Assembly: GCA_021739765.1 (NCBI GenBank)
Contig: JAIPBD010000004.1
Location: 248,001-312,000, forward strand
Direction of reading: 5' to 3'
DNA from: Melioribacteraceae bacterium
GTDB lineage: Bacteria > Bacteroidota > Ignavibacteria > Ignavibacteriales > Melioribacteraceae
DNA: 64,000 bases
The notes under the pieces were generated by a model. It did not search any database and was not told where the DNA came from. It was given only the letters and a program-made list of their open reading frames with translations. How positions within the stretch are numbered: the first letter of the stretch is position 1; the number at the start of each line of letters is the position of its first letter. The position numbers were made by a program, and so were the translations under genes. Shown here piece by piece: positions 14,599 to 28,359 of the stretch.

Positions 14599-16029
14599 TT
14601 AGATTTCCCGACCCATAAACACCTTATCATCTTTATGGGGAATTAGTGTTTCGTCACCAAAATTCAATCTAATTTTAAATTCGGTACCGGGAAATTGATC
14701 ATCTCCGATTCTTGAAGGACTTTCAAAATCTATTTCCCCTCCCAATCGATCGAGAATTTCTTTAACCACTGAGAGCCCAAGTCCGGTGCCTTCGACACCA
14801 TACGAACTGCCGGATTTTGATCTGAAAAACTGTTTGAAGATTTTGCTTTGATCATCTTTTGGGATTCCAATTCCATCATCCATAATTGATAAAAAGTAAG
14901 CGCCTTTCTCTTCGGAGGATTCAATTATAACCCGCCCGCCGTTTTTACCGTATTTTATGGCATTATTCAAAAGATTAGAAATCACCAATTCTATCAAAAC
15001 ATAATCACCGGATACAAGCCGATCAGAATCGCGCTTTTCGGAAAAACTAACTTTAATTTTCTTTGCGCTTGCGCTGTCTTCCTGCTTTGAAATTTGATTT
15101 TCGATTATTTCGTTCATATTAACAAATTCATTGGAAGTTGAACTTAGTAGGCGGATTTTCGAAATTCTAAGAACATTATTAATCATTTGAATGGATTCTT
15201 CGGTTCTGACTTTCGCGCGCTCAATTTTTTTCCTCATTTCGGGATCGATTTTACCGACATACCCGCCAAGTATCAAATCTAAAAGTGACTGTACCGCCGA
15301 AATCGGTGATTTTAATTCATGCACAACTCCCATAATATATTTTTGCTTTGCGACTTCTGTTTCGTTTAGTTTGGAAAGTGTTTCTTTTAATTCTTTTTCT
15401 CGTTGATATAATCTGCGGGCAATTGTATTTGTAAGTAATACACTTACAAAATTTATGAACGAGAGTGTAATTGCCGTCATCAATGTGAAGTTAAATGTGG
15501 GTGAAATGCCCTCTTCATAGATTCCTCTTATAATGTGGCTTTCAACTTCACCATAATGCTGCATAAATAGAAGAGAAATAATTATCACATTTAAAATAAA
15601 AGCGATGGAGATTATTACCCTTCCCGGTAGAATTAAACTGCCGATTATAAGCTGAAAAATTACAAATGTCAGAAATGGCGAATAAATTATTCCGGTGAAA
15701 TATATTAGGAAGATAACACTTACAAGGTCTAGAATTGTTTGTATAAAAGAGAGATGAAGCGAATTAAAACTTCCGGGAACTGTTCCGACATATCCCCGGA
15801 AGTAATGAATTAATACGTTGTATAAAAGAATAATTCCTGCGGTAAAATAGATGCCTTCAATCTGTTTTATATCTAAAGTGAATTCGATAAAATAATCACT
15901 AAATGAAAAAAACAATATCAGCATCAAAACCGCGAGATAACGAAGCTGAATAAACCAAAGATTTCTTCTTCGGATCGAAATCCAAAACTCGTCGTAGTTT
16001 TCAACCCAAGATGGTACTAGTCTGATCAT
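14599..16029 (-). CDS. Membrane-bound sensor histidine kinase
   Basis: A 476-residue histidine kinase. The first 200 residues hold about six hydrophobic helices with no recognised sensor domain, so the signal may be sensed in the membrane. The dimerisation box is GVVHELKSPISAVQSLL (phospho-accepting His near residue 238). The ATP domain follows with NNAIKYG (N box), DDGIGIP (G1) and GTGLGLSVVKEI (G2). It has no receiver domain. It lies 47 bases after hydrogenase gene hydA1 on the same strand and may be the last gene of the hydrogenase operon, though a promoter candidate sits in that gap and inside the hydA1 end. Confidence 0.88.
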   Translation of the reverse strand: MIRLVPSWVENYDEFWISIRRRNLWFIQLRYLAVLMLILFFSFSDYFIEFTLDIKQIEGIYFTAGIILLYNVLIHYFRGYVGTVPGSFNSLHLSFIQTILDLVSVIFLIYFTGIIYSPFLTFVIFQLIIGSLILPGRVIISIAFILNVIIISLLFMQHYGEVESHIIRGIYEEGISPTFNFTLMTAITLSFINFVSVLLTNTIARRLYQREKELKETLSKLNETEVAKQKYIMGVVHELKSPISAVQSLLDLILGGYVGKIDPEMRKKIERAKVRTEESIQMINNVLRISKIRLLSSTSNEFVNMNEIIENQISKQEDSASAKKIKVSFSEKRDSDRLVSGDYVLIELVISNLLNNAIKYGKNGGRVIIESSEEKGAYFLSIMDDGIGIPKDDQSKIFKQFFRSKSGSSYGVEGTGLGLSVVKEILDRLGGEIDFESPSRIGDDQFPGTEFKIRLNFGDETLIPHKDDKVFMGREI

Positions 16030-16046
16030 TACAATTTTGGCTGTTT

Positions 16047-16054
16047 CAAAAATA
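16047..16054 (-). promoter_or_regulatory. Candidate -7 promoter element (TAnnTTTG) for the histidine kinase
   Basis: On the minus strand TATTTTTG lies 18 bases before the kinase start. This fits the Bacteroidetes -7 element, but no TTTG was found at the expected distance upstream. It would give the kinase a transcript separate from the hydrogenase operon. Confidence 0.3.
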
Positions 16055-16076
16055 TATGTTCAGCCGTTCTCCAGAT

Positions 16077-17993
16077 TTAGTCAATAAATTTACCCCGTTT
16101 AGTGTAATGAGTGTGCAGCAATTTGTGCGATAATTCACCACACGGCCCATCCAAAAGGAAATTTGCGTAAATGTGGTTAACATAAGGATTCTCATGAGAT
16201 TTCCTAAGTGTTAATCCTTCTTCTTCAGCATAAATCGCTTCTGCTCTTTTTTCTCTTATTTTTGCATTTGTTGGAATCGGTTGACCGCCACCGCCAAGAC
16301 AACCGCCCGGGCATCCCATAAATTCTATAAAGTGGCATTCACTCAACTTTCCACCCGATTTAATATTTTCCATAACCTTTTTGGCATTGGCTGTTCCATG
16401 CGCGACGGCAACTTTTAAAGTAACTCCTTCCAACCATTTCCAATCCGGAATCAGCGGTTTCAAAATTGCCGGTACTTCCGCTACACCTTCAATAGGAAAT
16501 TCAACATATTTGATGCCTTCAAATCCTCTTACCGGAATAATTTTAGCGTTTTGGAATACGTTTTCAACTTTATTTCCGGTAACCAATTCGATAATTGATC
16601 GAAGAGCAGCTTCCATTACTCCACCGGTCGCACCGAAAATTAATCCCGCTCCCGATGCTTCCCCAAAGGGATCATCAAAATCAGATTTAGGCATTTCCGG
16701 AAGATGAATTCCGGCCTCGCGAATCATTTGAGCCAATTCCCTTGTGGTTAATCCGTAATCCACGTCTTTAAATCCCGAATCACGCATTTCAGGCCGTTCG
16801 CATTCAAATTTCTTGGCGGAGCATGGCATTACCGCAACTGTTACAATATCAGCCGGATCAATTCCCTGGAGTTTGGCATAATAGGTTTTTATCAATGCTC
16901 CGAACATTTGCTGCGGTGATTTGGCACTGCTTAAATTATCGATAAACTCCGGATAGAAGTGTTCGAGATATTTAACCCAACCGGGAGAACATGATGTAAA
17001 TTGAGGTACTTTCACTTCCGCATTGCCTTCGACAAGAGCATTGTAAAGTCGAAGTATCAGTTCCGTTCCCTCTTCCATAATTGTTAAATCTGCCGTAAAA
17101 TTAGTATCAAATATCTTATCAAATCCGATTCTTCTTAAAGCTGTATTTAATTCCCTAGTAAGCGAAGTTCCGGGTTCCATCCCAAATTCTTCACAAATTG
17201 CGGCTCTTGGCGATGGAGCGGTTTGTATAATAACATGTTTTGTGGGATTATCGATCGCTTCCCAAATCTTGTCGGAAGGGTCATTCGCGTGTAATGCTCC
17301 CGTCGGGCACCGGTTGATACACTGTCCGCAATTAATACAAACTACATCGGCAAGTGGTTTATCCAAAAAAGTGCTTATTGTAGTATCAATTCCGCGATTA
17401 ACAGCTTCGAGAACTCCGACTTCCTGTAAATCGATGCAGGTTCTTACACATCTTTTACAAAGAATACATTTATCCATATCTCTGATTACAGAAAATGAAG
17501 ATTTATCGACATCGTATTTAGATTTTTGAATATGACCGAAATTATATCGGTCTACGCCATATTCCTTGGCTAATTTTTGCAGTTCACAATTATTATTTCT
17601 AACGCAAGAGTAACACTCGCCAAAATGTTCACTCAACATCAAATCGATAATGTGCCTTCTTGCCTTGCGAACCATCGGGGTTGTTGTTTTAATTTTTATG
17701 GGAGCAGTGATCGGGAAAGTGCAAGATGATTGCAGAGTTTTCATTCCTTCAACATCAACAACACAAATTCTGCAAACACCGGCAATACACAAATCATCGT
17801 GGTGACAGAGGGTTGGAATATGAATATTGTTGTTTTTGCATGCCTCCAAAATCGTTGTTCCGAAAGGAACGGTAACTTTCTCACCATTTATTTCAATTGT
17901 AACATTACTCCCAATTCCTTCTTTTTCAGCGGGAAGTTCCAACTTATTTGGTTTTTGGCTTACCGGAGCACGGCTTTCATCATTAATTAACAT
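16077..17993 (-). CDS. hydA: [FeFe]-hydrogenase catalytic subunit, first of two (HydA/HndD type)
   Basis: A 638-residue catalytic subunit of an NAD(P)-linked [FeFe] hydrogenase. Order: about 45 extra residues; a plant-type [2Fe-2S] domain (TLCHHDDLCIAGVCRIC); a His/Cys [4Fe-4S] site (HFGECYSC..NNNC); two ferredoxin clusters (CILCKRCVRTC and CINCGQCINRCP); the H-cluster domain with MPCSAKKFE and EFMGCPGGCLGGGGQP. The first H-cluster motif reads TSCSPGW, with Ser336 where the other catalytic subunit in this window has Cys. The longest frame reaches 18113, but ATG 17993 has GGAGG five bases upstream; it overlaps the NuoF gene by 11 bases. No extra C-terminal cluster. Confidence 0.93.
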   Translation of the reverse strand: MLINDESRAPVSQKPNKLELPAEKEGIGSNVTIEINGEKVTVPFGTTILEACKNNNIHIPTLCHHDDLCIAGVCRICVVDVEGMKTLQSSCTFPITAPIKIKTTTPMVRKARRHIIDLMLSEHFGECYSCVRNNNCELQKLAKEYGVDRYNFGHIQKSKYDVDKSSFSVIRDMDKCILCKRCVRTCIDLQEVGVLEAVNRGIDTTISTFLDKPLADVVCINCGQCINRCPTGALHANDPSDKIWEAIDNPTKHVIIQTAPSPRAAICEEFGMEPGTSLTRELNTALRRIGFDKIFDTNFTADLTIMEEGTELILRLYNALVEGNAEVKVPQFTSCSPGWVKYLEHFYPEFIDNLSSAKSPQQMFGALIKTYYAKLQGIDPADIVTVAVMPCSAKKFECERPEMRDSGFKDVDYGLTTRELAQMIREAGIHLPEMPKSDFDDPFGEASGAGLIFGATGGVMEAALRSIIELVTGNKVENVFQNAKIIPVRGFEGIKYVEFPIEGVAEVPAILKPLIPDWKWLEGVTLKVAVAHGTANAKKVMENIKSGGKLSECHFIEFMGCPGGCLGGGGQPIPTNAKIREKRAEAIYAEEEGLTLRKSHENPYVNHIYANFLLDGPCGELSHKLLHTHYTKRGKFID

Positions 17994-19188
17994 TTCGACC
18001 TCCACTGGATTTCGCGAATATCTCTTCACGGAAATTTTCGAGAATTGAAATAAAAGAATTAGGGCTTGTTTGTCCCAATCCGCATTTTGATGCAACTTGC
18101 ATTGATCTGCCAAGATCTATCAATTGATTGATATACTTGAACGTGTATTCACCCTTTTCTAATTTTTCAATTCCATCCAATAGTTTTGCGTTCCCGATTC
18201 GGCAAGGTGTGCACTGGCCGCAAGATTCTTCAACAAAAAATTCCATAAAATTTTTGAGAATTTTAAGCATACTTCTCGATTCATTAAAGATCATTATCGA
18301 TCCACCGGTTCCGGCGTCTTCGTATGCTAATTTTCGGTCAAATTGAGTTTTGGGATAACAATACCCTGAAGCGCCGCCAACTTGAACCGCCTTTGTATTA
18401 CTTGCGCCCGCCAAATCAAGTATTTCCGAAATAGTTGTTCCCCAAGGCAGTTCATAAACACCTGGTTTTTCACAATCACCAGAGACGGAAAAGAGTTTAA
18501 TTCCGGTTGATTTATCAGTTCCATAATTTCTGAACCATTCCCCTCCTTTTGTAATGATGTGTGAAACTGCGGCAAAAGTTTCAACATTATTAACTGTGGT
18601 CGGGAAACCCATAAATCCGGTATTTACAGGATATGGAGGCCTGTTTCTAGCTTCGCCTCGGTGACCTTCGAGTGATTCGATCAAAGCGGTTTCTTCACCG
18701 CAAACATACGCACCCGAACCGAGTCTTATTTCAATATCAAAATTGTATTTGGATTGGAGAATATTCTCACCGAGCAGGTTGTCCTTCTTCATTTGTTGAA
18801 GGTAATCTTCCAAAGATTTTAGCATGTATTCATATTCAGCACGCAAATAGACAAATCCTTTTTGTGCTCCAACCGTAATTCCGCCTACAACCATACCATC
18901 AAAGACCAATTCGGGATGTTCGAGAAGTAAAAATCGATCCTTGAACGTACCCGGTTCACCTTCGTCGGCATTACAAACAACATATTTTTTATCGGCTTTT
19001 GCGGCGGCCGTTAACATCCATTTTGTGGCAGTGGGAAATCCGGCGCCGCCCCTCCCCTTAATTTTTGATTCTTTTAATTCAAACAACACGTCTTGTCGAC
19101 TGATCCCTACGGCTTTTCTTATCGCCTCACCGGGTGAATAGTCGGCAAAAATAACGGGTTGAAATTTTACAGTTTCTAAATCTTCCAT
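17983..19188 (-). CDS. hydB: NuoF-like flavoprotein subunit of [FeFe] hydrogenase, short form (HydB/HndC)
   Basis: A 401-residue NADH/FMN subunit. GRGGAGFPTATKW holds the NADH/FMN loop, and NADEGEPGTFKDR and GAYVCGEETALIESLEG are further flavin and NADH contacts. A [4Fe-4S] cluster is bound by CGQCTPCR plus the later KCGLGQ cysteine. This is the core only: the N-terminal thioredoxin-like [2Fe-2S] domain and C-terminal ferredoxin domain of full-length HydB are both missing, unlike the copy at 25761. The frame can start at GTG 19194, but ATG 19188 has GGGGTG at better spacing. Two genes of one complex: starts just after the NuoE gene, overlaps hydA. Confidence 0.92.
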   Translation of the reverse strand: MEDLETVKFQPVIFADYSPGEAIRKAVGISRQDVLFELKESKIKGRGGAGFPTATKWMLTAAAKADKKYVVCNADEGEPGTFKDRFLLLEHPELVFDGMVVGGITVGAQKGFVYLRAEYEYMLKSLEDYLQQMKKDNLLGENILQSKYNFDIEIRLGSGAYVCGEETALIESLEGHRGEARNRPPYPVNTGFMGFPTTVNNVETFAAVSHIITKGGEWFRNYGTDKSTGIKLFSVSGDCEKPGVYELPWGTTISEILDLAGASNTKAVQVGGASGYCYPKTQFDRKLAYEDAGTGGSIMIFNESRSMLKILKNFMEFFVEESCGQCTPCRIGNAKLLDGIEKLEKGEYTFKYINQLIDLGRSMQVASKCGLGQTSPNSFISILENFREEIFAKSSGGRNVN

Positions 19189-19196
19189 TTTCACCC

Positions 19197-19670
19197 CTAA
19201 TTAATTCCGTTTAGAATTTCAATCACTTTTTGTGGTGTAACTTTTGTATAAACTCTTTCGTTTACAATTAACGCAGGACCTTGATCGCACATCCCCAAAC
19301 AATTCGCGTATTCCAGTGTTATGTTTTTATCATTTGTCGTTTCCCCGAATTTGATTCCGAGTTCCCGTTCCAATGCTTCTTCTATTTCATTTTTCCCGAG
19401 TAAATCGCAAATTATTGTTTTGCACAAGCGGATCGTATTTCTTCCCTTTGGCTTGGAGTGTAGAAATGAATAAAACGATATAACGCTGTAAACTTCAACC
19501 GGGTGAATATCTAATAAACGAGCGATCTCCTGCTGCGCGAAATCTGATATATGTTGATGCTTTCTTTGCACGCCTTGAAGAACAGGAAGTAAGCTTGATC
19601 TGTCTCTACCGAATTGTTCAATCAAACCGGTAATTTCTTCTGTTATTGAATTTTTCTCTAAAACGTCCAT
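19197..19670 (-). CDS. hydC: NuoE-like [2Fe-2S] subunit of [FeFe] hydrogenase (HydC/HndA)
   Basis: A 157-residue thioredoxin-fold protein carrying one [2Fe-2S] cluster and passing electrons in the NADH-linked hydrogenase complex. The four cysteines are in CKTIIC (C-x4-C) and CLGMC (C-x3-C), the NuoE spacing. The N-terminal helical part (SSLLPVLQGVQRKHQHIS) is also typical. It ends a few bases before the NuoF start and begins 2 bases after the small response-regulator gene, so the signalling block and this hydrogenase set are on one transcript. Confidence 0.92.
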   Translation of the reverse strand: MDVLEKNSITEEITGLIEQFGRDRSSLLPVLQGVQRKHQHISDFAQQEIARLLDIHPVEVYSVISFYSFLHSKPKGRNTIRLCKTIICDLLGKNEIEEALERELGIKFGETTNDKNITLEYANCLGMCDQGPALIVNERVYTKVTPQKVIEILNGIN

Positions 19671-19672
19671 AA

Positions 19673-20056
19673 TTAGTTACTCCTTACCTCTTTTGAAAGA
19701 AGCAGTTCGACTTTTTCAACTAACATATCCGGTGATATAGGTTTTTCGACGAAATCATCCACCGGAACCATTTCTCCGGCACCATATTCAAATCCTATAG
19801 TTTTTGTTACGGATGTGTACATTAAAATCGGTGTTTCCACACCGTGTTTTCTAAATTTTTGTGCAAGGAAGAATCCATCATCAGGTTCATCCATCATCAC
19901 ATCAAGGATTATCAAATCTGGTTTGTTGTCAACCACAATCGTAAATCCATCATCCGGATTGGAAGCCACAATAATTTCGTGCCCTTTTGATTCGAGAACG
20001 AGTGTACTTGCTTCAATGATATCCGGGTCGTCATCAATTAATGCTATTAGAGCCAT
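19673..20056 (-). CDS. Single-domain response regulator (REC only)
   Basis: A 127-residue receiver domain with no output domain. The acidic pocket is DDDPD (about residues 7-11), the phospho-acceptor Asp is in DLIILDVMMDEPDDG (about 54), MYTSVTK gives the Thr/Ser switch, and VEKPIS the lysine. The frame allows ATG 20062, but ATG 20056 has GGGAG six bases upstream, so it is preferred. The start lies inside the preceding REC-PAS-kinase gene (23-base overlap). It must act by protein contact or phosphotransfer; partner kinases are encoded upstream and at 14599. Confidence 0.88.
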   Translation of the reverse strand: MALIALIDDDPDIIEASTLVLESKGHEIIVASNPDDGFTIVVDNKPDLIILDVMMDEPDDGFFLAQKFRKHGVETPILMYTSVTKTIGFEYGAGEMVPVDDFVEKPISPDMLVEKVELLLSKEVRSN

Positions 20057-21554
20057 TTCCATCTCCCGTTATTTGTTTTGATATTTTATAGTTTGGCAAA
20101 TATATTTTGAAATTAGAACCCTTTTCGTACTCGCTTTCAACCTCTATTTTTCCATGATAATTTTCAACGATTCTTTTTACAATTGTTAATCCCAATCCCG
20201 TACCCGGAATTCCTCGCGTAGATGAATTCTTCGCTCGAAAAAATTCTTCAAATAATTGTTTCCGCTCTTTCTCTCTTAATCCAATGCCAGAATCAATTAT
20301 TTCGATGATATAAAAATTACCGGAGTCAGAGATATTGACTAATATCGAGCCGCCAACTTTATTGTACTTAATCGCATTTGAGATAAGGTTAGTAAATAGC
20401 CTATTTATTTCATTTTCATCGGCAAAAAACAATACTCTATCGGTAGAGTAGTTGAACCGGATATTCAATTTACGGGCTTTAAAATCAACTTCGAATGAAT
20501 TTATGATGGATTGGATGAGTGGAATTAGATCAATATCGTTCTTGATTCTAAACTTATTCTTTAACTCCATTCTTGAAATATCCAACAGATCATTTACCAG
20601 AGTAATCATTGATGATAATCGGGAAACGGATCGTTTTAAAAATTCGGTCTTTTTAGATTCATCCAACTTAATCGATTTATCCAAAATTATTCTGATGAAC
20701 CCATCAACGGCAACAATAGGTGTTTTTAATTCATGCGCTACCATCGACACAAATTGATTTTTTATTCGTTCTATTTTTTTTAATTCGCTGATGTCATTTA
20801 CGACAAATATTGCCCCGACTGTAAAACCATGTGGATCTTTAACGTGATTAATCGCGACTTCTACAAAAAGTTCGCCCGCTTTCATTTCAATCTGTTTTGT
20901 AAATGACTTATCACTTTTTAAATCACTTTGTATTAATTTCTCAGCGGTTTCAAATAGGTCGGCGGGTAATTTCTCAGTAACAACGTCACTCACTCTCAAC
21001 TCATTTATGTTGAACAATCTTAACAATGCTGAATTGAAATAAACCACCTCATATTTAGAATTAATGATTAAAATTCCTTCGTTAATTGACTGTACAATTG
21101 TATTCAGCCGACTTTTTTCAAAGGCTAATTCAAACAAGTTTTTTTCACGTTCTTTTTTTAGGTTTTTTGATTCGAGCAGCAGTTTTCTTCGATTATAGCC
21201 TTGACGCAATTGTTGCAGAAGTTCTTCAGGTGTGAAAGGTTTCGGGATATACGCAAACGAACCAAGGTGTGCCGACTCAACCGCGGAATCGTAACTCGCG
21301 AATGCCGTGGAGATAAAGCAGACGGTCTCAGGTTTATTTTTTCGAAAAGCTGTTAGAACATCCAGACCATCAACATCCGGCATTCGAAGATCGATCAACG
21401 CCAGATCATAATCATTGGTTATTCCCTTCTGAATACCTTCCGTTCCATTTTCGGCGGTATCAACGGAATAGCCTTCGTTTTCGAGGAGTCTTTTCGTCCC
21501 GTTGCGAAGCCCTTTTTCATCATCAACAATCAATATTGAAGGTTGATAATTCAT
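20034..21554 (-). CDS. REC-PAS-histidine kinase hybrid protein
   Basis: A 506-residue cytoplasmic signalling protein. Order: receiver domain (about 5-120; acceptor Asp in ALIDLRMPDVDG near residue 56), a coiled linker, a PAS domain (about 150-260, RLNTIVQSINEGILIINSKYE onward), dimerisation box SMVAHELKTPIVAVDGFI (about 265-282) and ATP domain with NLISNAIKYN, DSGIGLREKE and GTGLGLTIVKRI. No membrane segments. The N-terminal receiver suggests the kinase is controlled by another kinase, most likely the hydrogenase-like sensor encoded two genes upstream. PAS ligand is not known. Confidence 0.9.
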   Translation of the reverse strand: MNYQPSILIVDDEKGLRNGTKRLLENEGYSVDTAENGTEGIQKGITNDYDLALIDLRMPDVDGLDVLTAFRKNKPETVCFISTAFASYDSAVESAHLGSFAYIPKPFTPEELLQQLRQGYNRRKLLLESKNLKKEREKNLFELAFEKSRLNTIVQSINEGILIINSKYEVVYFNSALLRLFNINELRVSDVVTEKLPADLFETAEKLIQSDLKSDKSFTKQIEMKAGELFVEVAINHVKDPHGFTVGAIFVVNDISELKKIERIKNQFVSMVAHELKTPIVAVDGFIRIILDKSIKLDESKKTEFLKRSVSRLSSMITLVNDLLDISRMELKNKFRIKNDIDLIPLIQSIINSFEVDFKARKLNIRFNYSTDRVLFFADENEINRLFTNLISNAIKYNKVGGSILVNISDSGNFYIIEIIDSGIGLREKERKQLFEEFFRAKNSSTRGIPGTGLGLTIVKRIVENYHGKIEVESEYEKGSNFKIYLPNYKISKQITGDGNGSNSIN

Positions 21555-21602
21555 AATTTATACTCTATTAAATAATTAATTCTTTCATTTGAAAGAATAT
21601 AA

Positions 21603-22010
21603 CTAAGATTCGAAAAAATTCTCGAGCTTAGTTAACAATTCGCTTACAGCTACAGGTTTGTTTATTATCCCGTCACAGTGAATCCATTCTTTTTCTTCAT
21701 CTGTAGCCGTACTGAATTTAAATCCGGTATCGTAAGTTGCTGAAGTGAGAATAAACACCGGAATAGGTTTATCCTTTGTATGTTTTTTTATTCTGTGTGA
21801 TAAAACAAATCCTGAGTCATGGTGTTCCATTATTAAATCGACAATTGCCGCATCGGGCTGCTGTTTTTTAAATACCCTCCATCCCTCTTCACCGGATTCT
21901 GCTGTAATCACTTCAAATCCTTTAGTCTCTAATAATAATTTATTCTGTTCAAGTAAGTCGATATCGTCATCAACTAACAGAATCGTTTTAATTTTTTCTT
22001 TGATTTCCAT
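21603..22010 (-). CDS. Single-domain response regulator (REC only)
   Basis: A 135-residue receiver domain with no output domain. DDDID (about residues 15-19) forms the acidic pocket, the acceptor Asp is in AAIVDLIMEHHDSG (about 57), ILTSATYD gives the Thr/Ser switch and NKPVAV the conserved lysine. It starts 8 bases after the hydrogenase-like sensor kinase stop, with AGGAAAG as ribosome site. The likely phosphodonor is that kinase. It resembles the other REC protein at 19673; both have a DSGF or DDGF stretch after the acceptor Asp. Confidence 0.9.
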   Translation of the reverse strand: MEIKEKIKTILLVDDDIDLLEQNKLLLETKGFEVITAESGEEGWRVFKKQQPDAAIVDLIMEHHDSGFVLSHRIKKHTKDKPIPVFILTSATYDTGFKFSTATDEEKEWIHCDGIINKPVAVSELLTKLENFFES

Positions 22011-22018
22011 TTTCTTTC

Positions 22019-24007
22019 CTAATTGAGCGAATATGAATGTTTCGGTATTCGGGGCAGAGAAATCCTAACTTTCGTTCCAACATTCATTTTACTATCTATT
22101 TGAATTTTACCTTTATGCATTTTAATTATGCCATACGCAATCGCCAAGCCAAGTCCGGTACCTTTTCCGATCTTTTTAGTCGTAAAAAACGGTGTGAACA
22201 GACTCTTCATATTCTCGTCGGCAATTCCGCATCCATTGTCCTCAATTATCGTTATCAAATCGTGATTTAGAGTTTCCAATTTTACTTTAATTTTTCCGGG
22301 CTCTTTTTCAATTAACGCTTCACCGGCATTATTAAGAATATTTAGAAAGACTTGTAATAATTGATCCTCATCTGCTTCAATCCATTCTTCGTTCGAATTA
22401 TCTACCAATTCAATATTAATCGGCATTTTATCATTTATAGATTTAAGTTCAATTGCTTTTTGGATTATAAGTTTTGGACAAACTCTTTTCAAATTTAGTT
22501 TTCCGTGCCGGGCAAAATTGAGGAGATTCTTCACAATACTTGAGCATCTTTGAGTTTCTTCAATAATTAAATTTAAGTCTTCAACTTCTGTGTTAAACTT
22601 TTCATTTTTGGTCAGAGCATTTTTTACCAGATTCGAATATATCATTATCGTGCTCAGCGGATTATTAATCTCATGCGCTATTCCGGCAGCCAATTGACCA
22701 ATTGATGCTAATTTTTCCGCGTTGTAGAGTTGATCTTTTGCTTCTTCCAATTTCCTGTTAGTTTCCTCAAGATTGCTGATAAGATTTGGAAGACACATAT
22801 CATCTTCAGCTAAATTTTTTGCTATCGAAATCGCATATTCCCTGCATGTTTTATAGCCGCATGCACCGCAGTTTAGCTCATCAGATTTTGTAAATTTGTT
22901 GGATCTTCTCAGAATTTCGCTAATAATTTTTTCCGATGGTTGTTCCCTTCGCTGCGGAAAGGGATTGAACTTCCGTTTAAGATCGATTTCCCTTGAGTTG
23001 AAAATTTCACTTTGCCAAACGTTTTTATCGGTTTTATGGATTGTCCCGTCCACATATTCAATCAACCGCTCCCTTCTTGAATAGTAGTTGAGATCAGAGT
23101 CAATCGCGGGACCATTTATACAGCCTTCACAGAAAAGAATGTCAATAAATTTACCTTTAATTTTGTTTTCACTAACATCTTTAATGATTGATTCTACATT
23201 TGATTTGCCTTCAACCGAAATTGTACGTTTAGCTAAAATATCATTCGTAATATCTGAGGTTTTTAAAAGACCTCCCAGCAAAGCGTAGGATTTCCCCATT
23301 CGCGAGCTCGGTTCATCAAATTGGGAAATAGAGGAGTTATCAATGTTGATTCCAAAATCAACAAATAATTGTTTTATCTCAGCGAAAGTCAGTACTGCAT
23401 CTATCAGATTATTAACTTCATTATCTACCGCTTCACTTTTTTTCGCAATGCAAGGACCGATAAATACAACTTTCACATGACTACCGTATTTCGATTTTAA
23501 ATACCTCGCGGTTGCAATCATCGGCGAGATTATCTCCGCAAGATTCGATACCAATTCGGGGTAATATTTCTCTATAAAATTATATACAGCAGGACACGCT
23601 GACGAAATAATTGTTTTTTCCTCTATCGTTTCGAAAACATTTTTATATTGTTGACTAATGAGATCGGCACCAAATGAAGTCTCAATAACTTGTTTAAATC
23701 CTGCGGCTTTTAAGGCGTTAGGCAGGTTGTAAAAATTTGTCGGAAATGAAGCGGGAAAAGACGGCGCGACAATCGCGTAAGTGCTGTTATATCTTAAGAA
23801 TTCGCTTTCGACTACAAGTAAATCGCTTTTAATTTTTTTTGCGTTTTGTGAACATACCTTAACACAATGACCACAAGCAATGCACCTTTCTTCAATTACA
23901 AAAGCCTGTCCATCAATCACTTTTATAGCGTTTGCCGGACACTCCCTTATGCAGGAATAGCATCTTTTACATTTTTGCCCGATTGTGCTTACAATTCCCT
24001 TTTCCAA
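22019..24007 (-). CDS. Hydrogenase-like sensor fused to a histidine kinase (HydS type)
   Basis: A 662-residue soluble fusion. Residues 11-55 bind two [4Fe-4S] clusters (CKRCYSCIRECP and CIACGHCVKVC). Residues about 75-330 are an H-cluster-type domain with all four cluster cysteines kept (C138, C186, C293, C296) but changed surroundings: SACPAVY for TSCCPGW, with Ala137 replacing the proton-relay Cys, PCIAKKSE, and CEGCINGP with one residue fewer between cysteines. About 378-403 is a third Fe-S motif (CGACGYKTC...C). Then the kinase: His445 in GIAHEINNP, NNAGEAL, EDNGCGI, GTGLGLAIAYGI. Likely senses H2 or redox rather than making H2. Start is TTG, in frame four codons after the hydA2 stop, without a clear ribosome site. 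Confidence 0.9.
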   Translation of the reverse strand: MEKGIVSTIGQKCKRCYSCIRECPANAIKVIDGQAFVIEERCIACGHCVKVCSQNAKKIKSDLLVVESEFLRYNSTYAIVAPSFPASFPTNFYNLPNALKAAGFKQVIETSFGADLISQQYKNVFETIEEKTIISSACPAVYNFIEKYYPELVSNLAEIISPMIATARYLKSKYGSHVKVVFIGPCIAKKSEAVDNEVNNLIDAVLTFAEIKQLFVDFGINIDNSSISQFDEPSSRMGKSYALLGGLLKTSDITNDILAKRTISVEGKSNVESIIKDVSENKIKGKFIDILFCEGCINGPAIDSDLNYYSRRERLIEYVDGTIHKTDKNVWQSEIFNSREIDLKRKFNPFPQRREQPSEKIISEILRRSNKFTKSDELNCGACGYKTCREYAISIAKNLAEDDMCLPNLISNLEETNRKLEEAKDQLYNAEKLASIGQLAAGIAHEINNPLSTIMIYSNLVKNALTKNEKFNTEVEDLNLIIEETQRCSSIVKNLLNFARHGKLNLKRVCPKLIIQKAIELKSINDKMPINIELVDNSNEEWIEADEDQLLQVFLNILNNAGEALIEKEPGKIKVKLETLNHDLITIIEDNGCGIADENMKSLFTPFFTTKKIGKGTGLGLAIAYGIIKMHKGKIQIDSKMNVGTKVRISLPRIPKHSYSLN

Positions 24008-24019
24008 TTGATACTCGAA

Positions 24020-25747
24020 TTATTGTTCAAGAATCTTTTTACGGTTAAAATAATTTGTATGCAAGATTTCGTGAGATTTAGAACTATTCGGTTCAGTCAG
24101 GAAATCCTCATAGAGTTTTTTCACAAATAAATTATCATGAGAGAACCTGGAAACTGAATTTTTATCAATCTCATATAACGTTTCAATTCTTTTCAAAATC
24201 TTTTCTCGTTGTTGATGTATCGGTTGCCCGCCTCCATTTACGCATCCGCCGGGGCACGCCATCACTTCTATAAAATGATATTTTGAATTTCCGTTTTGGA
24301 TTTCATCAAGTATCGGATCAATATTACCGATGCCGTTTACCACAGCGACATTGATTTTATTTCCATTTATTTCAAAACTTGCTTCCTTTAATCCGTTATT
24401 TCCTCGTACTTCCGATAATTCGACTGATTGCAGATTATTTCCAGTAAGTTTGAAATATGCGGTTCTTAAAGCAGCTTCCATCACACCACCTGAAGTTCCG
24501 AATATAGCGGCCGCACCGGTTGATTCTCCGAGAGGATTATCGAATTCATCTTCGGGTAAATCGTCAAATTCAATTCCCGCCATTTTGAAAAACCGAACAA
24601 GCTCGCGAGTTGTCAGAACAGCGTCAACATCGGGATGGTGCTCCGTTGCTAATTCCGGTCTCTCAGATTCAAACTTTTTAACGGTACAAGGCATGATTGA
24701 AACAACGAAAATATCTTTTGGATTAATACCCATCTTTTTGGCATAGTAAGATTTTAATATTGCGCCCTCCATTTCGTGGGGCGATTTACACGTAGAAACA
24801 TGTTTTAATAGCTCAGGCCGATTTTGCTCAATGTATTTAACCCATCCCGGACAACAACTTGTAAACATCGGTAGATTATTTGATTTCGTGAATCTATCGA
24901 TGAATTCGGCCGATTCTTCCATAATAGTTAGATCCGCCGCAAAATTGGTATCAAAAACATTATCGAATCCCAATCGCCTTAAACCGGAAATCAACTGTCC
25001 CGTCACATTTGTGCCGATCGGTAAATTGTATTCTTCACCGAGTGACGCGCGCACAGCTGGCGCAATTTGTACAACGGTGTATTTCGTTTTATCATTTATG
25101 GCCGCGGTAACAACTTTCAGACTACTTTTTTCCCTCAAAGCAGCTGTTGGGCATACTAAAATGCATTGTCCGCAGAGAATGCAATCGCTGATGTTTAATC
25201 CCTTATTAAATGGTGTTGTTACGTTGCTTCGAAAACCACGATTTGTAAAATCGATTGCACCCACATTTTGAATTTCGTTGCATGTTCGTACACATCTTCC
25301 GCACAAAATGCATTTAGCCGGATCTCGTTCCATTGATGCGCTTGAAATATCTATTGCGTGTTGTTTTTTCTCACCGACATACCGATGTTCACGCATTCCG
25401 TATTTTTCACTTAAATCCTGAAGCTCACAGTTTTTATTTCGAACACAAATGAGACAATCCTCGGGGTGATTTTCGACCAGCAGCTCAACAATTGTTTTTC
25501 TCGCTCTGCGAACCCTCTGTGAGTTCGTTTCAACCCTGAGCCCTTCACCGACAGGATAGGCGCAACTCGGTACAAGTCCTCTAAAACCCGAAACCTCACA
25601 AACACAAATTCGGCAAGAGCCGGTTGGGAAAAGCTCCTTGAGGTGACATAGAGTAGGAATGTGCACTCCAACCGAATTTGCGGCTTCGAGTATTGTCATC
25701 CCTTCTTCTGCTTTAACTTGGATATTATTTATTGTTAAATTAATCAT
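24020..25747 (-). CDS. hydA: [FeFe]-hydrogenase catalytic subunit, second of two (HydA)
   Basis: A 575-residue catalytic [FeFe] hydrogenase. N-terminal [2Fe-2S] domain (TLCHLKELFPTGSCRICVC), His/Cys [4Fe-4S] site (HPEDCLICVRNKNC), two ferredoxin clusters (CILCGRCVRTC, CILCGQCILVCP), then an H-cluster domain with fully canonical motifs TSCCPGW, MPCTVKKFE and EVMACPGGCVNGGGQP. It should therefore be active. The frame extends to 25771, but ATG 25747 follows GAGGAAAG and clears the upstream gene by 13 bases. The other HydA (16077) has about 45 extra N-terminal residues and a changed first motif. Maturases HydEFG are needed but not in this window. Confidence 0.94.
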   Translation of the reverse strand: MINLTINNIQVKAEEGMTILEAANSVGVHIPTLCHLKELFPTGSCRICVCEVSGFRGLVPSCAYPVGEGLRVETNSQRVRRARKTIVELLVENHPEDCLICVRNKNCELQDLSEKYGMREHRYVGEKKQHAIDISSASMERDPAKCILCGRCVRTCNEIQNVGAIDFTNRGFRSNVTTPFNKGLNISDCILCGQCILVCPTAALREKSSLKVVTAAINDKTKYTVVQIAPAVRASLGEEYNLPIGTNVTGQLISGLRRLGFDNVFDTNFAADLTIMEESAEFIDRFTKSNNLPMFTSCCPGWVKYIEQNRPELLKHVSTCKSPHEMEGAILKSYYAKKMGINPKDIFVVSIMPCTVKKFESERPELATEHHPDVDAVLTTRELVRFFKMAGIEFDDLPEDEFDNPLGESTGAAAIFGTSGGVMEAALRTAYFKLTGNNLQSVELSEVRGNNGLKEASFEINGNKINVAVVNGIGNIDPILDEIQNGNSKYHFIEVMACPGGCVNGGGQPIHQQREKILKRIETLYEIDKNSVSRFSHDNLFVKKLYEDFLTEPNSSKSHEILHTNYFNRKKILEQ

Positions 25748-25760
25748 TACTTTCCTCAAC

Positions 25761-27731
25761 CTAATTAACAATTATCGCATCAAATCTGCACGAATCCACA
25801 CACATTCCACATTTTATACATTTGCCTTCCAAAATGTAGTGTGGTTGCTTCTTCTCACCCAAGATAGCTCCGGCAGAACATTTCCGGATGCAAAGACCAC
25901 AGCCGCTGCACACATTTGAGTCAATTGTAAATGTTAAAAGCTCTTTACAAACGTGAGCCGGGCAGTTTCTTTCGTAGATATGTTCTTCCCACTCTTCTTT
26001 GAAATAATGTAAACTTGAGAGCACAGGATTTGGTGCACTCTGTCCTAATCCGCATAATGAAGTATCTTTTATAACTTCAGATAATCTTTTCAAGTGGATA
26101 ATACCTTTGAACCTGTAAAGCTCTTCAATTGGCTCTTTGATATTCCTATAATCTTGTCCGATGCGTTCAATTATCTCAAGCATTCTTTTTGTCCCTTCAC
26201 GACAAGGAACACATTTACCGCAGGATTCGCTTTGAATAAATGAGATGAAGAATTTCGCCACATCAACCATACAAGTATCTTCATCCATTACGACAAATCC
26301 TCCGCTGCCCATCATCGCACCGATTGATTTTAGGGATTCGTAATCCACTTGAGTATCAATCACAGATTCAGGCAGACATCCCCCCGAAGGCCCGCCAATT
26401 TGAACCGCTTTAAATTTTTTATCATCAGGTATTCCGCCTCCGACACTAAAAACTATATCACGTAATGTTACACCCATAGGAACTTCAACCAATCCGCTAT
26501 TGGTGATTTTACCACTTAGCGCAAATACTTTTGTTCCTTTGCTGTTCTCGGTGCCTATTGATGAAAACCAGTGAGAGCCTCGTTGGATGATTGTCGCAAT
26601 GTTTGCGAGAGTTTCTACATTATTTATTACTGTTGGTTTGCCCCATAATCCTGCCGTAGTCGGAAATGGCGGTCTTGGTCGCGGCATTCCTCGTTTACCT
26701 TCGATAGAATTAATTAAAGCCGTTTCCTCACCACAAACAAACGCTCCCGCACCTTTTTTTATTTTGAGATTAAAACCGAAACCGGAATTAAGAATATTAT
26801 CACCCAACAGACCATACCCCTTGCACAGTTTAATCGAAATCTCCAATCTTTGAATCGCCAACGGATATTCTGCCCTGCAATATATATAGCCATAATTTGC
26901 GCCTATTGCATAGGCAGCTATCAGCATTCCTTCAATTAATTGGAATGGATCCCCTTCCAATATAGATCGATCCATAAATGCGCCCGGATCACCTTCATCA
27001 GCGTTGCAAATAATAAATTTTTCAGACTCAGATTGCGCGTTTGCCAATTCCCATTTTTTACCAGTCAGGAAACCGCCGCCGCCTCTTCCCCTAAGTCCGC
27101 TCTTTACAACTTCATCAATTACGTTCGTGGGAGACATTCTCCTCAGCACCTTATCAAGTGAGCGAAAACCTCCGGAACTTATATACTCATCGATTGAGAC
27201 CGGATTAATAATTCCACAATTCCTGAGGACAATTCTTTTCTGATTTTTGAAGAACTGAGTTTCATTTATATTTTGGATTTTACTCGTAGAATTACCATGA
27301 GTAGCAAACAGTTTTTTGGTGTAAATTTCTTTCTGAATAATTGTTTTTTCTATGAAATCGGATATCTCTTTGCGGTGGATATTTCTGTAAATAATTCTAT
27401 CTTCTCCGGGATGTTTAATTTCAACAACCGGTTCAATAGCCCCAAATCCAAGGCCGCCATTTTTTTTCAGAATTACTTTTAGATCCTTTTTTTGTATTTC
27501 TTCTTCAATCAGTTTGAAAATTATATCAGCTCCCGAAGCTAATCCGCTGGTATCAATTCCAACAAAAATTATCGGTAAATCATGAATTTCGCATCTTAAC
27601 ATCTGATTATAATTTGCAATTGTTTCTTCTAAGGAGGGTGTAATTTCCGGTTCAGTACATCTGGCTATAAACTCTTCCTCCGGAATTCCATCTTCAATTA
27701 ACTTATTTTTGAGTTCAAGAAAGCTTTTCAT
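25761..27731 (-). CDS. hydB: NuoF-like flavoprotein subunit of [FeFe] hydrogenase, long form (HydB)
   Basis: A 656-residue full-length HydB. The N-terminal thioredoxin-like domain (about 50-130) has lost all four [2Fe-2S] cysteines: GIDTSG (58-63) and NGGLGFGAIEP (91-101) stand where family members have C-x4-C and C-x3-C. The NuoF core is intact: GRGGGGFLTGKKW, NADEGDPGAFMDRS, GAFVCGEETALINSIEG, and the [4Fe-4S] site CGKCVPCR plus LCGLGQ. The C terminus carries a CPAHVC motif and two ferredoxin clusters (CSGCGLCIRKC and CIKCGMCVDSC). It overlaps the NuoE gene by 17 bases. Like Thermotoga HydB in layout, so electron bifurcation is a fair inference. Confidence 0.93.
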   Translation of the reverse strand: MKSFLELKNKLIEDGIPEEEFIARCTEPEITPSLEETIANYNQMLRCEIHDLPIIFVGIDTSGLASGADIIFKLIEEEIQKKDLKVILKKNGGLGFGAIEPVVEIKHPGEDRIIYRNIHRKEISDFIEKTIIQKEIYTKKLFATHGNSTSKIQNINETQFFKNQKRIVLRNCGIINPVSIDEYISSGGFRSLDKVLRRMSPTNVIDEVVKSGLRGRGGGGFLTGKKWELANAQSESEKFIICNADEGDPGAFMDRSILEGDPFQLIEGMLIAAYAIGANYGYIYCRAEYPLAIQRLEISIKLCKGYGLLGDNILNSGFGFNLKIKKGAGAFVCGEETALINSIEGKRGMPRPRPPFPTTAGLWGKPTVINNVETLANIATIIQRGSHWFSSIGTENSKGTKVFALSGKITNSGLVEVPMGVTLRDIVFSVGGGIPDDKKFKAVQIGGPSGGCLPESVIDTQVDYESLKSIGAMMGSGGFVVMDEDTCMVDVAKFFISFIQSESCGKCVPCREGTKRMLEIIERIGQDYRNIKEPIEELYRFKGIIHLKRLSEVIKDTSLCGLGQSAPNPVLSSLHYFKEEWEEHIYERNCPAHVCKELLTFTIDSNVCSGCGLCIRKCSAGAILGEKKQPHYILEGKCIKCGMCVDSCRFDAIIVN

Positions 27732-28212
27732 GTAATTCCTTTTTATCGGTTTCTTTCTCTTCTTTTTTGAATTTTGATATTATTTTAGGAATTTCTTTGA
27801 TTGAAACTCCACCGAAATATTCATCATTAACATTTATAACCGGAGCGATACTGCAAGCTCCGATACAAGCGACGGTTTCCAACGTAAACATTTTATCTCT
27901 GGTTGTTTCGCCTGCCGAAATCTTCAACTCATTTTCGAGCGCATAAAGTATGTTAGCCGAATTCTTTACATGGCAAGCGGTTCCCCTGCAAACTCGAATA
28001 ATATTTTTTCCGAGTGGCTTTAGTCTGAACTGATTATAGAATGTTGCGACGCCATAAATAGTGCTCATTGCGAGACCTAAATGCTCCGCTGTTTTCTTCA
28101 GCATTGTTTCGGGGAGATAATTGTATTCTTCTTGTATATCTTGTAGAATACCAATTAAATTTGATCTATCGTTTTTTGTGTATTTGGTAAATATTTTATC
28201 GCTATTTATCAT
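27715..28212 (-). CDS. hydC: NuoE-like [2Fe-2S] subunit of [FeFe] hydrogenase (HydC)
   Basis: A 165-residue thioredoxin-fold [2Fe-2S] protein and the first gene of the hydrogenase operon. Cysteines are CRGTAC (C-x4-C) and CIGAC (C-x3-C). The helical N-terminus (NDRSNLIGILQDIQEEYNYLPE) is typical NuoE. The frame can start at TTG 28245, but ATG 28212 matches where family members begin; neither has a strong ribosome site. A lysine/glutamate-rich tail of about 15 residues follows the fold. With the HydB partner's [2Fe-2S] site lost, this protein may be the main entry [2Fe-2S] centre of the set. Confidence 0.9.
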   Translation of the reverse strand: MINSDKIFTKYTKNDRSNLIGILQDIQEEYNYLPETMLKKTAEHLGLAMSTIYGVATFYNQFRLKPLGKNIIRVCRGTACHVKNSANILYALENELKISAGETTRDKMFTLETVACIGACSIAPVINVNDEYFGGVSIKEIPKIISKFKKEEKETDKKELHEKLS

Positions 28213-28359
28213 GAAAACACCAGATTGTTTATTATTGACTTCCAATTAACATGCCAAATGATTTTAATTTAATTAATCGTTTAATGGGTTATTTAATTCC
28301 ATTTTTTACGATAAATCACGGGAGCTTTTCTAAAAGTTAAGAATCCAGAATAAGTTTTC

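Follow-up and report, generated by a model that had tools for sequence, protein, structure and literature searches.

Two HydABC modules in one Ignavibacteriales operon, with conserved active-site residues in genomes without detected HydG and HydF

Described hydrogenase systems and the Melioribacteraceae locus

Three groups of described [FeFe]-hydrogenase systems come closest to the locus studied here: the bifurcating HydABC enzymes (group A3/A6; BfuABC; 7q4v, 8a6t and 7p5h), the non-bifurcating type represented by Syntrophomonas wolfei HydABC, Syntrophus aciditrophicus HydAB and the sub-type II BfuABC of Hydrogenedentota, and the loci in which a sensory hydrogenase gene lies beside HydABC, as in the HydABC-HydS of Thermotoga maritima and the group C3 'T' subunit of Hydrogenedentota. 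We compared with these an operon-like unit on a 64,000-nucleotide stretch of contig JAIPBD010000004.1 (positions 248,001 to 312,000, hereafter the window) from the Melioribacteraceae bacterium genome GCA_021739765.1 (G000 in our numbering; 99.8% complete). The unit consists of eleven consecutive minus-strand genes (28212 to 14599), arranged head to tail in the transcription order NuoE1-HydB1-HydA1-HydS-like kinase-REC1-REC-PAS-HisKA-HATPase-REC2-NuoE2-NuoF2-HydA2-membrane histidine kinase, and thus holds two HydABC sets, set 1 and set 2. Both HydA proteins keep their H-cluster residues, and we found neither HydG nor HydF in the genome that encodes them.

Set 1 shares with the bifurcating enzymes its three subunits, its cluster domains and the bifurcating signature; however, HydB1 here is without the N-terminal [2Fe-2S] cysteines, and the genome is without HydG and HydF. 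Set 2 has, like the S. wolfei and S. aciditrophicus type, a short NuoF-like beta subunit with TFK at the NADH site and no ferredoxin domain, but it is accompanied by a membrane kinase and a stand-alone REC and, in the family, stands behind a bifurcating set. According to PMC7311640, Ignavibacterium has already been named among the carriers of the non-bifurcating type. The HydS-like protein resembles those of T. maritima and group C3 in its position beside HydABC and in its substitutions at residues 299, 353 and 497 (CpI numbering), whereas here it is a histidine-kinase fusion with an FeS domain and no PAS, followed by a REC, a REC-PAS-kinase and a second hydrogenase; a kinase form is known among the group C3 proteins of Hydrogenedentota.

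The nearest counterpart is that of Melioribacter roseus, for which a 2013 paper (PMC3534657) lists three [FeFe] hydrogenases, two of them being Mros2480-2482 and Mros2487-2488; both sets (Mros2480-2488) are adjacent by locus tag. Genome G050 (locus L135), probably that of M. roseus, has the same gene order with NuoE2 and NuoF2 fused, and has HydE, HydF and HydG, in contrast to the window's genome, which is without HydG and HydF. The initial annotation had regarded two different sets around signalling genes as unfamiliar; this did not hold, as the gene order occurs widely within the family and the two M. roseus sets were listed in 2013, and the arrangement is a new combination of known parts, implicit already in the M. 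roseus papers. As for hydrogenases without maturases, some anaerobic eukaryotes keep [FeFe] hydrogenase without HydEFG, with activity reported (PMC9161772). Those are organism-level absences in protists, whereas here we see repeated loss within one bacterial order, affecting multi-subunit NADH-linked complexes. No report of bacterial hydrogenases without HydEFG was recognised in the literature searched, most subscription journals being outside the search.

Maturase loss and conservation of the HydA active sites

The [2Fe] part of the H-cluster is known to be made by HydEFG, and HydA1, HydA2 and the HydS sensor should all need an H-cluster. Neither a hidden Markov model profile nor BLAST with the HydG of G050 identified HydG in G000; the same BLAST query gave at least 808 bits in four HydG-bearing genomes and at most 61 bits in 19 genomes without HydG. 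HydF was likewise found in G000 neither by TIGR03918 (only other GTPases matched, below the cut-off) nor by PF18133, which matched all 12 HydG-bearing controls and none of the 18 genomes lacking HydG and HydF. HydE is represented by a 52-bit match to a 301-residue frame outside the window (G000:C1:205934-206836; L150 5935-6837), without the radical S-adenosylmethionine (SAM) motif CxxxCxxC and without stops, either a relic or a protein of new function. The window's genome therefore holds no maturase set of HydG, HydF and HydE.

In the family counts, we call HydG or HydF absent when the match falls below the curated cut-off. Hydrogenase-domain matches occurred in 65 of 80 family genomes, of which 36 had both HydG and HydF over the cut-off, 22 had neither and 7 had one. 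Among the 39 HydA-bearing family genomes at least 97% complete the division was clean, with 26 having both, 13 neither and none one alone (the match in G035, possibly no hydrogenase, is counted in the 65 and not in the 39). Fragments scoring below the cut-off were seen for HydG in G016 (254 bits) and G056 (164 bits) and for HydF in G039 and G019, none of them among the 39. HydG and HydF were both below the cut-off in eight family genomes, at least 90% complete, that have no HydA; one of these, G056, keeps HydE besides its HydG fragment. In the other two families of the order, HydA was present in 32 of 36 near-complete genomes and HydG in 14 of those 32; the 18 with HydA and no HydG included 12 also without HydF and six with it (G134, G135, G136, G137, G138 and G147). 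Five of these six HydF scores are the lowest of the list, and in five of the six genomes HydF lies within ~4 kb of a HydA1-like gene. The reverse case, HydG with no match for HydF, is seen in G155 and G156. The order as a whole thus comprises 71 near-complete HydA-bearing genomes, 40 with HydG and 31, G000 included, without, and 25 of the latter are also without HydF, with HydA (both sets or one) persisting. Our count over loci from named genomes, covering 43 of 80 loci and overlapping in some genomes with the family and order counts, had HydG missing in 17 of the 23 genomes that their title or contig placed in Ignavibacteriota, and no HydG match over the cut-off in 7 of 20 genomes of other phyla.

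In G050 the HydG-HydE locus reads LD-carboxypeptidase, HydG, HydE, lipoprotein and more genes (names beyond HydG and HydE being read from sequence). HydG is gone from this locus, with HydE and neighbours retained, in G061, G046, G053, G011 and G029, and at the HydE locus of G000 only the diverged HydE-like frame is left. The lineages without HydG are scattered among those with it on the operon tree, a distribution pointing to loss of HydG and not to lack of gain, with probably about ten losses in the family as counted by eye. The radical-SAM cysteines of HydE are intact in 16 of 16 copies from genomes with HydG and in 11 of 12 from genomes without it (28 copies; loci of the 11: L146, L147, L148, L149, L154 and L172-L177), the exception being that of G000; in several lineages HydE, radical-SAM site included, has thus outlived HydG and HydF. 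HydE identity to G050 ranges from 38 to 74% in 15 copies accompanied by HydG and from 24 to 68% in the 12 that are not. A complete C-terminal triad of cysteines is present in 6 of the 16 copies with HydG, counting G050, and in none of the 12 without. The HydE-like frame of G000 is only 24-25% identical to G050, versus 76-77% for its HydA1 and HydA2, whose pockets are intact. A second HydE paralogue lies away from this locus in G010 (G010:C76:112780-113805), with similar ones in G037, G042 and G067; it scores above the HydG-adjacent HydE on the HydE model.

To follow the active sites, we scored 23 pocket, ligand and proton-path positions, with CpI numbering transferred through alignments with solved chains (closest: 8a6t_A for HydA1 and 7q4v_A for HydA2); position 498 varies (Ala/Gly/Thr) and is not among them. 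HydA1 showed one parsimony change over 33 sequences (Gln for His325 in G042, which has HydG), and HydA2 one over 41 (Cys/Ser300, in G073 and G078, which have no HydG). All key sites invariant in the presence of HydG were also invariant in its absence, 22 of 22 in HydA1 (14 rows without HydG) and 23 of 23 in HydA2 (17 rows, the HydA2 of G073 and G078 being left out for Cys in place of Ser at 300); the pocket sites of the partial HydA1 of G062 and the partial HydA2 of G060 were mostly unread. By comparison, columns invariant in the presence of HydG change in 13-15% of cases in sequences without it, none of them key columns. Within genus g31, where four of four genomes examined are without HydG and HydF, 88 columns of HydA1 and 83 of HydA2 are variable, with no key site among them. 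The ratio of non-synonymous to synonymous substitution rates (dN/dS) there is 0.024-0.057 for HydA1 (0.020-0.065 in pairs with HydG) and 0.029-0.048 for HydA2 (0.034-0.057 in pairs with HydG), the dS of the most distant pair being near saturation. A search for convergent changes in the Hyd proteins of lineages without HydG gave a smallest P of 0.0004 over some thousands of columns, and no key site was among the five best convergent columns per protein. Purifying selection on HydA1 and HydA2 thus stays strong in g31, a clade from which HydG and HydF are missing.

How HydA might persist without HydG and HydF

The explanation we prefer, to which we give a little under an even chance, is that the two-module operon has active sites still in use, their [2Fe] site being provided not by HydG and HydF but by some other route, the existence of which we infer. 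We lean to another source of [2Fe], on evidence that is indirect and modest, because residues that would serve no purpose in a plain [4Fe-4S] site do not vary in the lineages without HydG. Broadened to the order, the proposal would be that Ignavibacteriales have an H-cluster assembly route needing neither HydG nor HydF and, in some, no HydE, which rendered the known maturases dispensable, with HydG lost some ten times in the family and HydABC left intact; in this form we regard it as possible but doubtful. Several observations weigh against such a route. We know of no source of the CO and CN ligands other than HydG. No replacement gene emerged beside the operon, where no family in at least three loci was confined to the 8 loci without HydG as compared with the 10 with it (flanks uneven), and none was found at the HydE locus. 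The preferential conservation of key sites over other invariant sites (P = 0.025 for HydA1 and 0.032 for HydA2) comes from a weak test, with lineages partly dependent and loss dates uncertain, and most of the genomes are metagenome bins. In addition, we withdrew HydE decay as a sign of lost H-cluster building: HydE drifts and loses its triad in genomes with HydG too (10 of 16 copies), and its decay is therefore no evidence except in G000. NiFe maturation (Hyp) was rejected as a substitute, as HypD occurred in no more than 5 of the 31 genomes tested, among them 4 of the 18 that are without HydG and HydF. G000 itself does encode HypD (G000:C3:42846-43889), unlike most relatives tested.

A rival that we consider a substantial but lesser possibility is that the complexes are kept for a job without a [2Fe] site, in which HydBC would exchange electrons between NADH, ferredoxin and the HydA iron-sulphur chain, and HydA would end in a plain [4Fe-4S] cluster. 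Each of the 13 near-complete HydA-bearing family genomes that lack HydG or HydF lacks both, as would be expected had H-cluster building stopped. NiFe-HydABCSL is described as a HydABC working with [4Fe-4S] in the H-cluster's place, and there are Bfu-family relatives with a [4Fe-4S] cluster replacing the H-cluster. A plain [4Fe-4S] site is harder to reconcile with Glu279, Glu282, Cys299, Ser319, Lys358, Met353 and Met497 (CpI), which are unchanged in the lineages without HydG that could be read. These residues presumably have no role in such a site. Nor do the losses keep step in the other families, as seen in the six genomes with HydF and no HydG and in G155 and G156 with HydG and no HydF.

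That the maturases are present but missed, through assembly gaps, extrachromosomal DNA or strongly diverged homologues, seems unlikely to us. The prevalence of bins would allow it, as would the low-scoring HydF of G134-G138 and G147 together with the family-wide fast divergence of HydE, and fragments below the cut-off do occur in less complete or fragmented genomes (G016 and G056 for HydG, G039 and G019 for HydF). However, G061 is a single contig, 99% complete, and is without HydG and HydF; profile, Pfam and BLAST searches are concordant, the four g31 genomes agree, the HydG slot is empty between intact neighbours, and the chromosome record at L074 (CP053447.1) yielded no HydG either. Least probable of all, in our judgement, is that the losses are recent and separate, so that the hydrogenases would be useless already with decay to follow. 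The scatter of HydG-less lineages on the tree does require many losses, but the 88 and 83 variable columns of the g31 HydA1 and HydA2 include no key site at dN/dS of 0.024-0.057, and the loss of the radical-SAM cysteines from the HydE-like frame of G000 implies that its maturase loss is not recent.

Operon layout, the two modules and their signalling genes

The genes of the operon in transcription order are as follows.

27715..28212, minus strand: NuoE/HydC of set 1 (PF01257, 6e-50, scored on the longer TTG frame 27715-28245)
25761..27731, minus strand: HydB of set 1, 656 residues; FMN/NADH core, 4Fe-4S, SLBB and C-terminal 2x[4Fe-4S]; bifurcating signature, N-terminal cluster cysteines lost
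24020..25771, minus strand: HydA of set 1, 583 residues, [FeFe]-hydrogenase catalytic subunit with TSCCPGW (NF040763 group A6, 865 bits against a cut-off of 765); H-cluster residues intact
22019..24007, minus strand: HydS-like sensor; hydrogenase domain, PF04060 FeS, HisKA and HATPase
21603..22010, minus strand: stand-alone REC 1 (PF00072), belonging with set 1
20034..21554, minus strand: REC-PAS-HisKA-HATPase kinase, belonging with set 1
19673..20062, minus strand: stand-alone REC 2 (PF00072), belonging with set 2
19197..19670, minus strand: NuoE/HydC of set 2 (PF01257, 1.4e-46)
17983..19194, minus strand: NuoF/HydB core of set 2, 403 residues; non-bifurcating signature
16077..17993, minus strand: HydA of set 2, 638 residues, [FeFe]-hydrogenase catalytic subunit with TSCSPGW (NF040763, 801 bits against a cut-off of 765, on the longer frame); H-cluster residues intact
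14599..16029, minus strand: membrane histidine kinase, the usual gene downstream of set 2 in Ignavibacteriota; hydrophobic segments in residues 23-202

For NuoE1 the ATG at 28212 is the most likely start, preferred from sequence, and for HydA2 the ATG at 17993 was taken, not the upstream TTG. The gene order and strand given by the initial annotation were confirmed, although it spoke of ten genes and its own list comes to eleven. Its view of small or overlapping spacings in a single operon also agrees with our data: neighbouring genes in the window are -29 to +48 bases apart, and one directon spans both sets as one operon-like unit. No internal terminator stands out (13 found versus 12.8 expected) and a promoter scan found 63 versus 47.6 expected (sd 6.9), both scans being uninformative for this phylum. 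Judged by their identities (34% for NuoE, 40% for HydB, 42% for HydA and 33% for REC), sets 1 and 2 are paralogues and not recent duplicates.

To look for the same order elsewhere, as the initial annotation had proposed, we ran tblastn over 80 HydA2 loci from named genomes and compared open reading frames with 31 of 40 hydrogenase stretches from family genomes. The order was identical in 29 of 29 loci with HydB1 to HydA2 all present, that is, in 26 distinct operons (three pairs are the same genome twice) belonging to Melioribacteraceae and a relative. Junctions along the stretch NuoE1 to HydA2 had medians of -47 to +3 bases (n = 23 for NuoE1-HydB1 and n = 29 for the others), lower bounds as they were taken from stop-to-stop frames, and the HydA2-to-membrane-kinase junction was looser (n = 23, median 124, maximum 6101). 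REC2-NuoE2-NuoF2-HydA2, mostly followed by the membrane kinase, forms a unit that often occurs without set 1 in Ignavibacteriota, and REC2 accompanies NuoE2-NuoF2-HydA2 in 12 of 21 loci titled as other phyla. The unit NuoE1-HydB1-HydA1-HydS-REC1-kinase directly precedes REC2 in Melioribacteraceae and some relatives. In family f3, each of the four genomes searched has a HydA1-like gene ~8 kb away from HydA2, as do four genomes of family f2 (G126, G128, G129 and G149); in most other f2 genomes the two are apart. An ispE-like neighbour is common to 14 of 18 loci compared, five of them without HydG, which argues for vertical inheritance of the operon. We would describe it, on the sequences compared, as a vertically inherited two-module operon of Ignavibacteriales, with a bifurcating-type set 1 and a non-bifurcating NADH-type set 2, each with its own signalling genes.

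Some loci depart from the common layout. L119 and L145 (G061 and G060) have nearly identical HydS and REC-PAS-kinase (dS 0.01 and 0.00) and differing HydA1 and HydB1 (dS 0.47 and 0.65), much as recombinational exchange of an operon segment might leave them. Two membrane-kinase relatives stand in tandem after set 2 in L040, L041, L054, L083 (~5 kb further on) and L127. In L157 8530-10498 (G028, which has HydEFG) HydA2 is in two overlapping frames, possibly a frameshift or assembly error.

To separate bifurcating from non-bifurcating enzymes we used the criteria of Losey 2020, taken from PMC7311640 and mapped by motif. Set 1 has a NuoG-like HydA N-terminus and intact H-cluster motifs, and HydB1 has the C-terminal 2x[4Fe-4S] domain and the A-F-M/GGPSG signature; AFM occurred in 31 of 33 distinct HydB1 frames and GGPSG in 33 of 33, three of these (L110, L155 and L156) being distant relatives. 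The initial description of a full HydB in set 1 thus stands for its C-terminal domain and fails for its N-terminus, where TSG/GGLGFG replaces the TCG/GCIGYC of the [2Fe-2S] (B5) cluster. The B5 cysteines are lost in 8 of 29 readable family members (G000, G010, G012, G034, G045, G046, G049 and G053), both with and without HydG, and by eye the loss appears to fall in two places on the tree. The need for the B5 cluster in bifurcation is disputed in print, and its natural loss from HydB1 bears on that dispute. The beta subunit of set 2 has neither GGPSG nor a ferredoxin domain at its C-terminus, and its NADH-site residues fall within the non-bifurcating choices of T/S and K/S/A; among 94 distinct NuoF2 frames, TFK occurred in 92, GGPSG in none and a C-terminal ferredoxin-type 4Fe-4S motif in none. 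The two sets, which the initial annotation had assigned to different redox partners, probably do use different ones, as the HydB1 and NuoF2 signatures suggest. Set 1, with HydS, REC and REC-PAS-kinase, would be a ferredoxin/NAD-type bifurcating HydABC, and set 2, with its own REC and membrane kinase, a non-bifurcating HydABC using NADH only. In relatives keeping HydEFG these would serve fermentative H2 production, with ferredoxin plus NADH re-oxidised by set 1 and only NADH by set 2, the H2 chemistry of both being inferred from knowledge of the family and from M. roseus.

The TSCSPGW motif of HydA2 had been proposed as a functional difference between the sets, and this we do not uphold, as the HydA1 of 7q4v (7q4v_A) carries the same motif and, according to PMC11406978, Ser in this motif is common in four of five Hydrogenedentota sub-types; the motif therefore marks no inactive enzyme. 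The other pocket residues of HydA2 are kept, and a dead active site was ruled out. The protein of 7q4v_A is an active enzyme. A set 2 that is no hydrogenase is also less likely, since HydG directly follows HydA2 in two loci of other phyla (L109 13318-14757, a Hydrogenedentota bin, and L113 12019-13431, a Deltaproteobacteria bin); this type of HydA2 is therefore a client of HydG elsewhere. In L112, by reading, a HydE-like frame follows HydA2.

Relative to CpI, HydS has Ala for Cys299, Gly for Met353, Tyr for Phe417 and Leu for Met497, and so combines a non-Cys residue at 299, a small residue at 353 and a non-Met residue at 497, substitutions that match those of sensory hydrogenases in PMC10055695. 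No PAS domain was found in HydS with Pfam at an E-value of 0.001, whereas FeS, HisKA and HATPase domains are present. The phospho-acceptor Asp is conserved in REC1 (33 of 33), REC2 (41 of 41) and the REC of the REC-PAS-kinase (31 of 33, Glu in two), and the H-box His in HydS (31 of 31), the REC-PAS-kinase (32 of 33, one gap) and the membrane kinase (34 of 34). The initial annotation had suggested that the relay selects one or the other HydABC set for use, and four signalling genes do lie between them with phospho-acceptor residues mostly kept; our results nevertheless make such a choice quite improbable. No DNA-binding output domain was found in the eleven proteins among the matches listed (the membrane kinase being scanned with NCBIfam only), and because no operon protein shows one, the signalling genes probably have their outputs on regulators encoded elsewhere, or act by direct protein contacts. 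Both sets lie in one directon, set 2 keeps REC2 and the membrane kinase even where set 1 is absent, so that each set has signalling genes of its own, and L124 and L136 are without HydS yet keep HydA1, REC1 and REC-PAS-kinase. Furthermore, according to PMC5492636, Mros 0634, 0635, 2480-2482, 2487 and 2488 were detected only in fermenting M. roseus cells, and only MROS_0634, a third hydrogenase, was up-regulated on maltose. Joint detection of both sets in fermenting cells speaks for joint use and not for choice.

The main interest of the locus is thus not its gene order but its maturase paradox. Intact and strongly selected HydABC complexes after the loss of HydG and HydF would mean either a novel route to a very rare cofactor or a hydrogenase repurposed with its active site untouched.

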